Of a DNA stretch of 50,152 nucleotides, positions 4,450 to 43,647 are shown one piece after another. Under the pieces are notes generated by a model. It saw nothing but the letters and a program-made list of their open reading frames with translations, searched no databases and was not told the DNA's origin. Within the stretch, counting starts at the first letter, position 1; every line of letters starts with the position of its first letter. The stretch comes from Actinomycetes bacterium. GTDB lineage: Bacteria > Actinomycetota > Actinomycetes > S36-B12 > UBA5976. The DNA is taken from contig BJFU01000004.1 in NCBI GenBank assembly GCA_014190035.1, positions 1-50,152 of the forward strand, read 5' to 3'. Position numbers and translations under genes: made by a program.

Positions 4450-5742
4450 ATGTCTCAGCCTAAAAAACGCATCCGTATTGATATTTCTGCCTTAAGGGCA
4501 TCACGAGATTTTCGATTAGTTTTTTCAGCAGGAGTCATTTCCAATATCGGTTCCATGATGACCTATGTGGCAATGCCATTTCAGATCAAAGAATTAACCA
4601 ACTCCTACCTCTGGGTTGGGGCAGTGGGATTTGTGGAAACTGTGCCCCTAATAATTTTTGGTCTTTATGGCGGAGTACTTGCTGATGCTTTTGATCGCAA
4701 AAAAATGATTCTAATTTCAGAATTCGGGGCGATGCTGGTTTCTATCGGTTTGTTATTAAATGTGATCTCAGGTTTTAACTCCCCTGTTTTGATTCTGATT
4801 CTGGCCATGATTTTTGCTGCCACCGATGGCATCTTTCGACCAGCAGTAGATGCCATGATTCCCCAAGTTGTGCCTTATCAAAAACTTCCTTCTGCTGGAG
4901 CCCTAAATTCTTTGCGCCATCAAACCTCTTCCATTGCCGGTCCCATGATCGGAGGCATCATTTTGGCATCCGGTGGAATTGCTTTTGCTTATTCTTTGGA
5001 TGTTTTATCTTTTGTAGTTTCTTTATTTTTATTAATCAGAATAAATTCTGCCAAACCAATTCACGGTGCTGAAAAACCATCACTTCATCGAATCAAAGAA
5101 GGCATCAAATATGCCTTATCCCGTAAGGATTTATTGGGCACCTACCTAGTTGATCTTTCTGCCATGTTCTTTGCTTTTCCATATGCCTTGTTTCCATTCG
5201 TAGCAGATGAATTAGGTGGTGCCTGGACTCTTGGTTTTCTCTACGCTGCCATCCCAGCTGGTGCATTAATTGCCACATTGACAAGTGGTTGGTCCAATCA
5301 TGTATCTCGACATGGACGAATCATTGCCTTTGCTGCTGCAGGTTGGGGTTTTGGAATTGTGTTGTTTGGTTTAGTGCACTCTTTGTTTTTTGCAATCATT
5401 GGTTTGATGATCGCTGGCTTCTTTGATCAAATCTCAGCCATATTTAGAGGTCTTATTTGGAACCAATCAATACCTGATCACCTGCGAGGACGCCTTGCCT
5501 CGATTGAAATGTTGAGCTATTCGGTTGGACCGCAGATGGGACAGGTGCGAGGTGCACTTTTTGCACGCGCTTTTGGACTGGAATTCTCATTAATTTCCGG
5601 TGGAATATTAACAATTATTGCATCTGCATTAGTTAGCGGAATGTTAAAAGATTTCTATAAATATGATGTAAATACCAATGTTTTTGCAAAAAAATTAAAA
5701 GATTTTCGTGAAAAAAATGCAAAAATTGACCACAATATATAG
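4450..5742 (+). CDS. MFS transporter (EntS/MFS_3-like exporter)
   Basis: Multiple hydrophobic helices; GGVLADAFDRKKMI loop typical of MFS. Confidence 0.88.
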   Translation: MSQPKKRIRIDISALRASRDFRLVFSAGVISNIGSMMTYVAMPFQIKELTNSYLWVGAVGFVETVPLIIFGLYGGVLADAFDRKKMILISEFGAMLVSIGLLLNVISGFNSPVLILILAMIFAATDGIFRPAVDAMIPQVVPYQKLPSAGALNSLRHQTSSIAGPMIGGIILASGGIAFAYSLDVLSFVVSLFLLIRINSAKPIHGAEKPSLHRIKEGIKYALSRKDLLGTYLVDLSAMFFAFPYALFPFVADELGGAWTLGFLYAAIPAGALIATLTSGWSNHVSRHGRIIAFAAAGWGFGIVLFGLVHSLFFAIIGLMIAGFFDQISAIFRGLIWNQSIPDHLRGRLASIEMLSYSVGPQMGQVRGALFARAFGLEFSLISGGILTIIASALVSGMLKDFYKYDVNTNVFAKKLKDFREKNAKIDHNI

Positions 5743-6014
5743 CACTTTTTTCACACTTATATATTTAATGTGAATAATGTGACTTGGCAAAAACCCCCTC
5801 TGACCTGCGAAAATGCACCCTTTTTTCAATTATTTTTAATTAAATTATTAACAAAAAATTTGTGTTTAAAACATTAAAAATTAGTGAAAAAATAGTTGCG
5901 ACACGGCGTGTCAAAATACGCGCTACATAGTGACAATATGCATTTCTTCTGGAACGATTGTTCTTAACGTTCTTCTGTGATTTCCGGAACAGAAGACACT
6001 CGCCAGGAGGAATT

Positions 6015-6242
6015 GTGGCTAAAAGAAGAAAAAAAGCAGCAAAGAAAGCAGCACCAAAGCGCCGTCGTAAGAAGGCAGCAGCTGCACCAAAGCGCCGTCG
6101 TCGTAAAAAAGCAGCAAAAGCTGCTCCAAAGCGTCGTCGTCGTAAAAAAGCTGCAAAGAAAGCTGCACCAAAGCGCCGTCGTCGTAAAAAAGCAGCAAAA
6201 GCTGCTCCAAAGCGTCGTCGTCGTCGTAAAAAAGCTGCGTAA
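6015..6242 (+). CDS. Very basic Lys/Arg/Ala-rich repeat protein (histone-H1-tail-like, 75 aa)
   Basis: GTG start at 6015 preceded by AGGAGG at 6005-6010; VAKRRKKAAKKAAPKRRRKKAAAAPKRRRRKKAAK...; strong terminator immediately downstream. Confidence 0.85.
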   Translation: MAKRRKKAAKKAAPKRRRKKAAAAPKRRRRKKAAKAAPKRRRRKKAAKKAAPKRRRRKKAAKAAPKRRRRRKKAA

Positions 6243-6260
6243 CCTTTACAGGTTTGCTAG

Positions 6261-6290
6261 AAAAACCCCGGTGCTTGCACCGGGGTTTTT
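6261..6290. terminator. Bidirectional intrinsic terminator
   Basis: AAAAACCCCGGTGC-TT-GCACCGGGGTTTTT, near-perfect stem with A- and T-tracts; lies between convergent genes. Confidence 0.93.
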
Positions 6291-6309
6291 TATATGTCTA
6301 TATAAATAG

Positions 6310-6558
6310 TTAAGAAATCCGGCGGCGATATATCGCCCAGATCCCACAAGCAATGGCAAAGACGCCCATCAGTCTGGCACCTATTCCAATTGAAAGACCG
6401 GCTAACCAGATTCCGGTGATTATCGCCAAAGAGCCAAAGAAGAAAGTCAAAATCCTGGCCCACATTTTCTTGCTAGCAAATGAGAAGGCAATGGCAATTG
6501 GACCGAATAAAAGTACTGACAAAAGTATCAGGCTCACAAGAAGCGCTAAAGATTCCAT
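6310..6558 (-). CDS. Small hydrophobic membrane protein (82 aa)
   Basis: In-frame ATG at 6558 within the 6310-6771 ORF; MESLALLVSLILLSVLLFGPIAIAFSFASKKMWARILTFFFG..., predicted helices; ends next to the shared terminator. Confidence 0.6.
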   Translation of the reverse strand: MESLALLVSLILLSVLLFGPIAIAFSFASKKMWARILTFFFGSLAIITGIWLAGLSIGIGARLMGVFAIACGIWAIYRRRIS

Positions 6559-6577: not shown

Positions 6578-7633
6578 ATGAAAAAAATATCTAGTGCATT
6601 TATCGCAATTTTCACCTTATTTATAGGTCTTATTTCAACTCCCGCAAATGCTGTTGTTGGTGGAGCAGATGCCACAGGATCAGGCTTTGTGGTTGCAGTT
6701 CGCGTTGATTTGCCTGGAGATTTGCAAACTGCATGTACTGGTGGTTTATGGAAACCAAAGATAGTTGTCACTGCTGCTCACTGTGTTGTCGCTGAAGGAA
6801 CTTCCACGGTTGCCAATGCCTCCGAGGTTCATGTTTATGCCCAAGGAGCAAACGTTTCAGGAGCACGACCTGCAGCAAATACAACAGCAATTATTTTGAC
6901 TGGCGGATATTCCAATTCCAGCACCGGATTTGTGGAAGCAAATGATTTAGCGTTTCTGATTCTGGATAAAGAAATTGGCACTCCCCTGATCTCTCGTTTA
7001 GCTAGCGAATCCGAAGCTGCTGCTGCCACAGTCTTGGGTAAAAAAATGAACTTTTTTGGCTATGGCCAAACGGCAAAAGTAAGTGATGTTTCCTTGATCC
7101 CGCTAACTCTTTCCCAAACCCCATTTCAGTTCTTAGGTGGCAAGACTTATCTATATGGCAAATCAGCAACAGGAACAGGTGCTTGCTTTGGAGACAGTGG
7201 TGGTCCAGTTATTTTGCAAACCGAAACTGAAAACCTTTTAATTGGACCAGTTGCAGGAGGCAGTGGATCTCCTTGTTATCCAGAAATAAAAGAGCGTGCA
7301 GTGTTGGGACTAGTTGCCAGTAATTTCACAGCGCTAGTTAAAACTGCCCTTACAACCGCAGGTTATTCAGCAGATGAAGCCTTTACAACTCCTAGACCAA
7401 GTCTTAATAAGGGCACTTTCACTGCCAAAACTGTTCTTAAAAAGATCGGGGTTACTACCTCTGGTTCTACCAATGTCAGATTTGTGGGAGTAAAAGCAAA
7501 ACCTAAGAATGCTTGTGTTGCTACCGCAACTTCAGTAATAGTTAATGCCAAGGGAACTTGTACCTTGACCTTTACTGTTAAAAAATCAGGCAAAACTGCA
7601 AGGACTGCAAAAACAACTTTCGATATTGGCTAG
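6578..7633 (+). CDS. Secreted trypsin-like serine protease (S1)
   Basis: ATG 6578 gives signal peptide MKKISSAFIAIFTLFIGLISTPANA; VVGGADA, TAAHC, NDLAFL, GDSGGPV catalytic motifs. Confidence 0.92.
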   Translation: MKKISSAFIAIFTLFIGLISTPANAVVGGADATGSGFVVAVRVDLPGDLQTACTGGLWKPKIVVTAAHCVVAEGTSTVANASEVHVYAQGANVSGARPAANTTAIILTGGYSNSSTGFVEANDLAFLILDKEIGTPLISRLASESEAAAATVLGKKMNFFGYGQTAKVSDVSLIPLTLSQTPFQFLGGKTYLYGKSATGTGACFGDSGGPVILQTETENLLIGPVAGGSGSPCYPEIKERAVLGLVASNFTALVKTALTTAGYSADEAFTTPRPSLNKGTFTAKTVLKKIGVTTSGSTNVRFVGVKAKPKNACVATATSVIVNAKGTCTLTFTVKKSGKTARTAKTTFDIG

Positions 7634-7645
7634 GTTTATTTTCCT

Positions 7646-8479
7646 ATGAGCACCACTTTTAAAACAGTTCCAGTAAATATCCCTCGTCCTGAATATGTGG
7701 GCAAGAAAGCCCCTACTGCCTATAAAGGAAGCGATGTTCAGACTTCTGAAGTAATAGAGAAAATGCGCATTGCAGGAACTATTGCAGCTGATGCCATGCA
7801 TTTAGCTGGATCTCAAATAAAAGATGGCATGACCACAGAAGATTTAGATGCGATCGTGCACGAATACATCTGCGATCAAGGCGCTTATCCTTCCACTCTT
7901 GGTTATCGAGGGTTTCCTAAATCTTTATGCACCTCAATTAATGAAGTAATTTGTCATGGAATTCCATCAGAGCAAATAATCAGAGAAGGAGACATCGTCA
8001 ATCTTGATGTCACTGCTTATAAAGATGGGGTTCATGGAGATACCAATTACACCTTCTTAGTAGGAGAGGTAAAAGAAGAAGTAAAACTTCTGGTGGAAAG
8101 AACTAAAGAAGCTCTAGATCGAGCAATCCAAGCCGTAACTCCGGGAAGACCAATCAATGTAATTGGTCGAGTAATTGAAAGTTATGCCAAAAGATTTAAC
8201 TACGGTGTGGTCAGAGATTTCACAGGCCATGGTGTGCACACCTCATTTCACTCAGGATTAGTTATTCCTCATTTTGATGATCCAACTGCCACTCAGTTAA
8301 TGCAAGAAGGAATGACTTTCACAATCGAGCCCATGCTTAATTTAGGAACCCATGATTACGACATCTTGGATGACACTTGGACTGTGTTAACAAAGGATAG
8401 AAAGATGTCTGCCCAGTTTGAGCACACGCTTGTGGTGACTAAAACTGGGGCAGACATTCTTACATTGCCTTCTAGTTAA
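7646..8479 (+). CDS. map: Type I methionine aminopeptidase
   Basis: [60 protein letters not shown]. Confidence 0.96.
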
Positions 8480-9305
8480 CGACTACTTCTCCCACTATTT
8501 TATTACCGATCTTGAAAATGATATTTCCGCCTTTCTTTAATTTCATTTTTGTTTTAACTGAAATATCACCTTTCTTATTTGCCTTCTCAGTCACTATCTT
8601 GGTCAATTTACCTGTTGCGGATTGATAGAAAACATCAATTTTTTTACCCTTCATCGCCGGTTCAAGATTAAGCTTGATTGATCTTGCCCCAGTAATAGTT
8701 TTAATGATTGTGGCTGTTGGTTCCTTTACGACTGGAATTGTGACAGGTGCTGCAACATTGGTACCACCTCTTGATGGCTCATTTGTAATTAGGAGATTTG
8801 CCAATTTCACGCATTCCACCCGATCACTTGCCCCACCTGCAAACTGTAAAACAACTGCCACTCTTGCTTTGCCTCTTTCAAATGCAGAAGAGGGACAAAG
8901 AGTTGCAAAATCTGAAGATCCGGTTGGTACATAAAGACTTGTAGCGTTATTCCAATCTTGATTTGGTCTCCAGCCGATTACTGCTGCATCTTTTACCAAC
9001 ATTGATGCATCTCCACAGGCAGATTCAGTCCATGAAGTTGTTGTCAAAGCTGATGTAAAATAGTTTGAACATCCAGAATTGGAATTCCAAACTGAATTTC
9101 CAAGCCAAAAACCCCAATAGGATCTAGGACCAGAATCTTTATATCCATCAATAGTGTCCACAAAACCACCAGGTGCAGAAACACTTGCAGCAATTGAAAG
9201 CGCTTCGGCTGCTGTTGGATAAAGTACTGTTTCCCCTGCTCGAGCGGGAGAGATGATTGCAGCACTAACGATAAGTGCAATTGCAGTTGTAAATATTTTT
9301 CTCAT
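8472..9305 (-). CDS. Secreted protein of unknown function, downstream of a cobalamin riboswitch
   Basis: Signal peptide [24 protein letters not shown]; Trp/Cys-containing N-terminal domain ([22 protein letters not shown]), lysine-rich beta-type C-terminal region. Confidence 0.85.
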
Positions 9306-9439: not shown

Positions 9440-9600
9440 GCGAAATATTTGACTAAACCACTTCAGGTAACCCGACTTATCGCTTTTACTTATATGGCCA
9501 CAAATTTTCACTTGTGAGCGATCCACGGTTGCGGGACAGCGTCAGCTTCCGACTGACTTCCCCTGATCAAGCATTGGGTTTTTGTCCTTGCTTGAAACAC
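9440..9600 (-). promoter_or_regulatory. Cobalamin (B12) riboswitch aptamer
   Basis: Minus strand GGGGAAGTCAGTCGGAAGCTGACGCTGTCCCGCAACCGTGG (B12-box architecture GGGAA...GUCCCGCaACUGU) and AGTCGGGTTACCTG (consensus aGUCaGgAuACCUGc). Confidence 0.88.
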
Positions 9601-9690
9601 ACTATTTAAATTTTTAGTTTTTACAAGTGAATCGACTTAAAACACGCAACTGTTTCATATGATGAAGCAAGCCCCTTAAAGAAAAGAAAC

Positions 9691-10923: not shown

Positions 10924-11682
10924 ATGATCAATTGGCCAGCCGATACTTTGACGCTGGCCATTGACATTGGTGGTTCAGGAATTAAAGCCAGCGTCATAAA
11001 TAAAGATGGCGAAATGGTTTGTGAACGAATTCGTATGGAAACTCCTTATCCATCTCATCCAGCAGGTTTCTCTCAAGTAGTGGCAGATTTTGTGAAAGAT
11101 TTACCCAAAGCACAACGTGCCAGTGTGGGTTTTCCTGGTTTAGTTCGAAATGGAATTGTGGTTATGGTTCCTTCCCTTTCTCGATTAGTTAAAGATGGGC
11201 CAAAAGATCCAGAATTAGTTAAAGCGTGGAAAAACTTTGATTTACAAACTCCTATGACAAATGCTCTAGGAATTCCCACCAAGGTTGCAAATGATGCAGA
11301 CATTCAAGGAGCAGCTGTAATTAAAGGTGAAGGCCTGGAATTTGTAATGACACTAGGAACTGGTGTTGGTACAGCTTTATTTCAAAATGGAATATTGCTT
11401 CCCCACTTAGAACTAGGGCATGCTCCTTTTAGACAAAGTGAAGAATTTGAAGAACAAATTGGCAATGCTGCGCGGGAACGAATTGGTGTTGAAAGATGGA
11501 CTAAGAGAGTAATAAAAGCTATTGCTAAATATGATCAATTTCTTTATTACGATCATTGTTATGTTGGTGGCGGAAATGCTAAACACATTAAAGGTTTAGA
11601 TCTAGGACCAAAAGTAACCAGGGTTAGCAATAAAGCAGGTCTTTTTGGTGGAGCAAGAATTTGGGACTTAGAAGCTAGTTAA
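10924..11682 (+). CDS. ppgK: ROK-family kinase, polyphosphate glucokinase-like
   Basis: LAIDIGGSGIKASV, VANDADIQGAA, TLGTGVGTALF, ELGHAPF. Confidence 0.85.
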   Translation: MINWPADTLTLAIDIGGSGIKASVINKDGEMVCERIRMETPYPSHPAGFSQVVADFVKDLPKAQRASVGFPGLVRNGIVVMVPSLSRLVKDGPKDPELVKAWKNFDLQTPMTNALGIPTKVANDADIQGAAVIKGEGLEFVMTLGTGVGTALFQNGILLPHLELGHAPFRQSEEFEEQIGNAARERIGVERWTKRVIKAIAKYDQFLYYDHCYVGGGNAKHIKGLDLGPKVTRVSNKAGLFGGARIWDLEAS

Positions 11683-43251: not shown

Positions 43252-43647
43252 TTAGCGCTTCTTTTTTGCTTTTTTCTTTAGGCCTAGAATTGATTTACCC
43301 TTTGAAGCTTTTTTAGTAACTTTTTTGGTTTTCTTGGCAGTTACTTTTTTAGCTTTCTTTGCTGCTCTTTTTCCACCAAGCACGATTGCTTTGAAATCTG
43401 CTGCTGGACGGAATTTTGCAACTGTTTTGGCAGGAACTTTAACTGGAGCACCAGTCATAGGGTTACGTGCCATTCTTGCTGGGCGGTTTTTCTTTTCCCA
43501 GATACCAAATCCTGCGATTGAAACCTTGTCACCTGATGCAACTGCGTTGGTGATCGTGTCAAAAAAGATGTCTACGAAATCTAGAGCTTGACGACGGTTG
43601 GCTTCAAAATGTTGTTGCACTAAGTCTGCTAAGTCTGGCTTCTTCAA
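43252..43647 (-). CDS. hup: HU-family DNA-binding protein with Lys-rich C-terminal tail (HupB-like); TTG start
   Basis: FFDTITNAVASGDKVSIAGFGIWEKKNRPARMARNPMTGAPVKVPAKTVAKFRPAADFK; tail AAKKAKKVTAKKTKKVTKKASKGKS; codon at 43645-43647 is TTG on the minus strand. Confidence 0.93.
   Translation of the reverse strand: MKKPDLADLVQQHFEANRRQALDFVDIFFDTITNAVASGDKVSIAGFGIWEKKNRPARMARNPMTGAPVKVPAKTVAKFRPAADFKAIVLGGKRAAKKAKKVTAKKTKKVTKKASKGKSILGLKKKAKKKR

Follow-up and report, generated by a model that had tools for sequence, protein, structure and literature searches.

A Lys/Arg/Ala/Pro repeat protein encoded upstream of map as a candidate free-standing H1-tail-like nucleoid protein of aquatic actinobacteria

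The window, i.e., the whole stretch of 50,152 nucleotides analyzed here, belongs to an assembly of 1.26 Mb in 122 contigs and carries at 6015..6242 (+) a gene that runs from a GTG at 6015 to a TAA at 6242 and encodes an H1-tail-like protein of 75 aa. Past the start position the protein consists exclusively of Ala, Lys, Arg, and Pro (K24, R22, A23, and P5, plus the start codon), so that 46 residues are Lys or Arg, none is acidic, and the net charge is about +46. It is built of five APKR(3-5)KK units with Ala/Lys linkers between them, and the underlying DNA is a tandem array with a 39-bp period (TRF score, 240). No Pfam or NCBIfam model matches the protein. A Shine-Dalgarno sequence, AGGAGG (6005..6010, +), lies 4 nt ahead of the GTG, a strong Shine-Dalgarno sequence being present in all relatives, and an intrinsic terminator (6260..6291, +) follows, with a 14-bp stem of −26 kcal/mol and then a T-run. 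The first-pass annotation had described a protein of this composition with a strong ribosome binding site and terminator; its coordinates, frame, and composition were exact, and both signals were confirmed. A longer reading from a TTG (5958-6242) was rejected, as the Shine-Dalgarno sequence, the conserved GTG/ATG, and the leader hairpin described below point to 6015.

The gene is flanked by two synteny anchors, an MFS transporter gene upstream (4450..5742, +; PF05977, E = 5e-42) and map, for type I methionyl aminopeptidase, downstream (7646..8479, +; TIGR00500, E = 1e-87). A trypsin-like secreted protease gene (6578..7633, +; PF00089, E = 1e-13) sits between the gene and map at five loci of the window's genus, g1 (L001 to L005), only and is absent from that position in other genera. 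Between the gene and the protease gene there is also a conserved ORF for a small membrane protein of ∼83 aa (6310-6558, − strand), which is kept in the congeners G001, G002, and G006. Beyond map, a secreted-looking ORF with no Pfam match (8472-9305) has a cobalamin riboswitch upstream (RF00174, 33.3 bits; 9447-9616, − strand). Two further genes mentioned in the first-pass annotation are indeed present: a polyphosphate-glucokinase-like gene (10924-11682), which matches NF045942 with an E value of 1.3e-33 but below the model's cut-off, and an HU gene (43252-43647; PF00216) whose product has a Lys-rich tail of ∼40 aa.

A profile search of genome contigs returned 596 pattern stretches, and tblastn confirmed 0 of them, which low-complexity masking presumably explains; map was therefore used as a synteny anchor and the DNA upstream of it was read. 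Among the closest named relatives of the window's map is a “Candidatus Nanopelagicales bacterium” contig (89% identity), and the order containing the family is, to judge from this similarity, a Nanopelagicales relative. An H1-like gene encoding a K/R/A/P/V/T protein was found upstream of map in 31 of 31 family genomes with a contig reaching far enough (G003, G039, G015, and G020 were not assessable and are outside this count). By synteny, the window gene is orthologous to the Lys/Ala/Pro-rich “histone H1-like” genes. Three more families of the order have it too: in f6 and f7 it precedes map, and in f2 it follows the MFS gene. In f3 and f4, no such gene was observed ahead of map. Among 80 actinobacterial map loci sampled from the genome collection, five carried the gene, all apparently from this family. 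The MFS orthologues lie upstream of the H1-like gene in genera g3 and g5 and in families f2 and f7, and from this synteny the ancestral gene order is read as nadE-panB-MFS-(gene)-map. In genus g2 (L172, L173, and L174), and in no other genus, ppk1 is located directly downstream of the H1-like gene, before map. Most genomes are draft assemblies. Seven copies of the gene run off a contig end (G002, G047, G017, G042, G057, G022, and G012), and that of G016 is interrupted by an N-run. The repeats evidently damage assemblies, and the gene is easily missed in genomes for this reason.

The length of the protein varies by repeat number and its composition by lineage. Comparison of repeat number, proposed in the first-pass annotation together with an ortholog search, gave lengths of 55 to 75 aa in the window's genus and from 41 aa to some 150 aa or more across the order. 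In the orthologue of G001 (L148, 3064-3351), a TAA occurs in frame after 55 codons and the remaining repeat is open behind it, reflecting truncation, polymorphism, or an assembly error. The common form among relatives has Lys-rich KKAPAKK repeats, and a Lys-rich orthologue from f7 (G029) scores 61 bits against Pfam HC2 (PF07382), over the gathering cut-off of 40 bits, with two other relatives below it (G021, 29.8 bits; G010, 17.4 bits). The Arg-rich form was found by profile search in g1 and g2 only; g2 is intermediate in its Lys/Arg balance, and Lys and Arg are almost equally frequent in the window's genus. In the orthologues read, the repeats start at residue 2 or 3, and no N-terminal domain of the AlgP type precedes them. 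The window's genus has the lowest GC content (39.5% versus 44 to 71% in the other loci read), at which mutation bias would favor Lys (AAA) over Arg (CGT), so that the Arg content suggests selection for Arg in this genus, although the Arg share does not track GC simply across all relatives.

Several lines of evidence indicate that the 75-aa ORF is a real gene, conserved in a group of aquatic actinobacteria. First, the congeners G000 and G006 differ in the gene by 8 synonymous and 0 nonsynonymous changes, and G000 and the more distant congener G001 differ by 15 and 7 (pS of 0.37 versus pN of 0.06); over these congener comparisons, pS is 0.14 to 0.37 and pN is 0 to 0.06, i.e., the protein is under purifying selection. 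Second, CGT or CGC encodes 20 of its 22 Arg residues. These two codons supply 60 to 70% of Arg in the window's ribosomal protein genes, while ordinary genes of the window mostly favor AGA or CGA, with leuC intermediate. Mostly synonymous divergence and Arg codon use like that of ribosomal protein genes point to a translated, well-expressed protein, and codon use, Shine-Dalgarno sequence, and terminator together support the earlier suggestion of a highly expressed monocistronic gene. Third, all 31 readable family loci carry it, so that the refuting condition named in the first-pass annotation, a lack of conservation among related genomes, does not hold.

Further conservation, beyond what the first-pass annotation described, is found in the leader. 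For this comparison, 32 leaders were extracted from four families, of which 27 were distinct and about half came from one genus; starts were picked by Shine-Dalgarno sequence and composition only. A GACAC box (5896..5908, +; TTGCGACACGGCG in the window), a putative upstream activator site, is present as CGACAC between −104 and −117 relative to the start codon in 27 of 27 distinct leaders, compared with 2 of 162 background genes (1.2%) taken from these loci; GCGACACGNCG has a single occurrence in the window's genome. The sequence around the box is little conserved, except 50 to 60 nt downstream, where 19 of 27 leaders have a CTGNCA...T sequence. In the window, this position is taken by an extended −10-like element (5949..5958, +; CTGGAACGAT), probably the promoter core, in the diverged form of the window's genus. 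The window's genus also has a strictly conserved 20-base core, CTCTGACCTGCGNAAATGCA (within 5790-5820), ahead of the gene; this core is absent elsewhere and was found in 16 of 249 loci, all of which are this locus.

Nearer the start, the window has a 5′-leader hairpin with an 8-bp stem (5971..5996, +; TCTTCTGT-GATTTCCGGA-ACAGAAGA). Hairpins of 6 to 9 bp ending 18 to 22 nt ahead of the start occur in 25 of 27 leaders, compared with 0.9 expected from dinucleotide shuffles, and an equivalent hairpin occurs in 6.8% of the 162 other genes. By genus, 9 of 10 have it (one weakly); the G036 leader has none. The sequences of the stems are unrelated (TCTTCTGT/ACAGAAGA, GCGTGATG/TGTCACGC, GCGTCA/TGACGC, ACCTTCGGG/TCCGAGGGT, CTTCCGAC/GTCGGAAG, CGCCCT/GGGGCG, and CGGCCT/GGGCCG), which indicates that what is conserved is the pairing and not the sequence. 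A long-range fold, in which UUCUUCUGG pairs with the Shine-Dalgarno sequence (z = −2.5), was not retained, as this pairing was not found in g2. GACAC matches the consensus published for WhiA, a developmental regulator of Streptomyces (PMC3781837); in vivo, WhiA binds in a WhiB-dependent manner (PMC4850268). Genes of the WhiA and WhiB types were present in 17 of 17 genomes searched, including genomes without the gene at map, and the link of WhiA to the box is a tentative lead, a motif of just 5 bases being slight evidence.

Lsr2 was found in 2 of 43 family genomes, both in g3, and is absent from 41, and HU is essentially single copy. HU carries a basic tail in g3, g6, g8, and most of g1, including the window, and lacks it in those g5 and g2 proteins that were read and in a congener of the window, G005. 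Comparison of the tailed HU of the window with the tail-less HU of G005, g2, and g5 indicates that the HU tail was gained or lost repeatedly in this one family. The free tail gene is present throughout and is thus more constant than HU's own tail.

We consider it probable that the gene product is an abundant, disordered, and free-standing nucleoid-associated protein resembling an H1 tail or a protamine, with disorder, DNA binding, and compaction being predicted. Runs of Arg and Lys would neutralize the DNA backbone, and Ala/Pro spacers would hold the chain extended, so that DNA might be condensed without any folded domain. The gene would form a transcription unit by itself, driven by a promoter that is shared by four families and has the GACAC box ∼110 nt ahead of the start, and would yield a short mRNA whose 5′ hairpin, just before the strong Shine-Dalgarno sequence, probably stabilizes the message; for box and hairpin alike, conservation is observed and the roles are those we infer. 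The preferred reading is favored by synteny, purifying selection, Arg codon use, the HC2 match in f7, the rarity of Lsr2, the lack of a tail on the HU proteins read from g5 and g2, where this gene supplies the H1-like tail that was found, the conservation of box and hairpin, and the function of the analogues AlgP and Hc2. The failure of the protein itself to match any Pfam or NCBIfam model counts against it, and because a polycation will bind polyanions of any kind, DNA has no special claim over RNA or polyphosphate. A further point against it is that HU persists, and is tailed in g3, g6, g8, and most of g1, so that tail function was not simply transferred to the free gene. The suggestion in the first-pass annotation of a free histone tail is supported by synteny with Lys-rich H1-like genes, one of them over the Pfam HC2 cut-off, and binding to DNA or RNA is plausible. 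A more elaborate scheme can be offered only tentatively. In members of this order, the protein could be a dedicated, separately regulated, linker-histone-like tail acting in trans with tail-less HU and without Lsr2. Its control could lie with a regulator that binds GACAC, possibly WhiA/WhiB, and with the conserved hairpin of the leader, and selection in the genomes of lowest GC could have replaced Lys by Arg against mutational bias, giving a protamine-like variant.

Four other explanations were weighed. The free polypeptide might be an HU tail in trans, replacing on the same DNA a Lys-rich tail lost from or shortened on HU. In those g5 and g2 genomes that were read, HU has a single copy and no tail, and the free tail is present. 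However, g3, g6, and g8 have a tailed HU and the free gene together, and the window's own HU bears its tail. We regard this explanation as unlikely.

Somewhat more doubtful is an AlgP-like protein of polyphosphate granules that bridges granules and chromosome. AlgP, an H1-like KPAA protein, localizes to polyphosphate granules and spaces them (PMC9239181), ppk1 directly follows the gene in g2, and 42 of 43 family genomes have ppk1. Against this, ppk1 is beside the gene in g2 only (3 genomes) and at 0 of 80 other map loci, and the N-terminal domain of AlgP is absent. The polyphosphate hint that had been taken from the nearby glucokinase gene was rejected: ppgK lies within 5 kb of map at 30 of the 80 sampled loci, most of them without the gene, so the neighborhood is older than the gene and ppgK carries no weight for polyphosphate. 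An RNA- or ribosome-directed polycation, i.e., an RNA chaperone or a ribosome-associated basic protein, likewise seems doubtful. It would accord with codon use and a Shine-Dalgarno sequence like those of ribosomal protein genes, with the Arg richness of g1 and g2, which would suit RNA, and with Hc2, which binds RNA and represses translation (PMC2848022); but the protein has no similarity to ribosomal protein families, its length range is unlike what a defined ribosomal site would demand, and the best family match of its Lys-rich relatives is HC2. Finally, a spurious repeat ORF, as might be suspected from the low complexity, the other open frames at the locus, and the in-frame TAA of G001, is very improbable in the face of synonymous-dominated divergence, order-wide synteny, and the joint conservation of start, Shine-Dalgarno sequence, terminator, box, and hairpin.

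If the free nucleoid polycation is the correct reading, it adds a candidate chromosome-packing component to small-genome aquatic actinobacteria and suggests a possible way for cells that lack Lsr2 and have only one, often tail-less, HU to compact their DNA. Standard annotation misses the gene because the protein is of low complexity and matches no model and because contigs often end inside the repeats; no paper describing it was found in the open-access literature. The fixed promoter box and leader hairpin provide a handle on its regulation, and the series from Lys-rich to Arg-rich and from 41 to ∼150 aa is a natural test of charge and length in DNA condensation.

Among known systems, Hc2/HctB (PF07382; NF038052 and NF038053), which condenses DNA and binds RNA (PMC2848022), also has basic Lys/Arg-Ala-Pro repeats and a length that varies by repeat number. 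The window protein is much shorter than Hc2 and rich in Arg, its hosts are aquatic actinobacteria for which no developmental cycle is known, and its gene has a conserved promoter box and leader hairpin of its own; as the PF07382 profile is reached by the f7 relative and does not match the window protein, the latter is better called Hc2-like. The tails of tailed actinobacterial HU (HupB/HupS) resemble the Lys-rich relatives in composition (KKAPAKK), but the window protein has no HU fold (no match to PF00216), is encoded by a separate gene at a different locus, and coexists with HU. With protamines it shares a charge density of ∼0.6 per residue, Arg runs, and the lack of acidic residues, and it differs in having about equal Lys and Arg, Ala/Pro spacers, and no Cys and in being bacterial and apparently expressed in growing cells. 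The C-terminal KPAA domains of AlgP/PhaF in Pseudomonas are H1-tail-like K/P/A repeats, and the AlgP domain and KPAA peptides are reported to bind DNA (PMC9239181); those proteins carry an N-terminal helical or granule-binding domain, whereas the window protein is the tail alone. By analogy, the protein most likely works like Hc2 or the C-terminal domain of AlgP.
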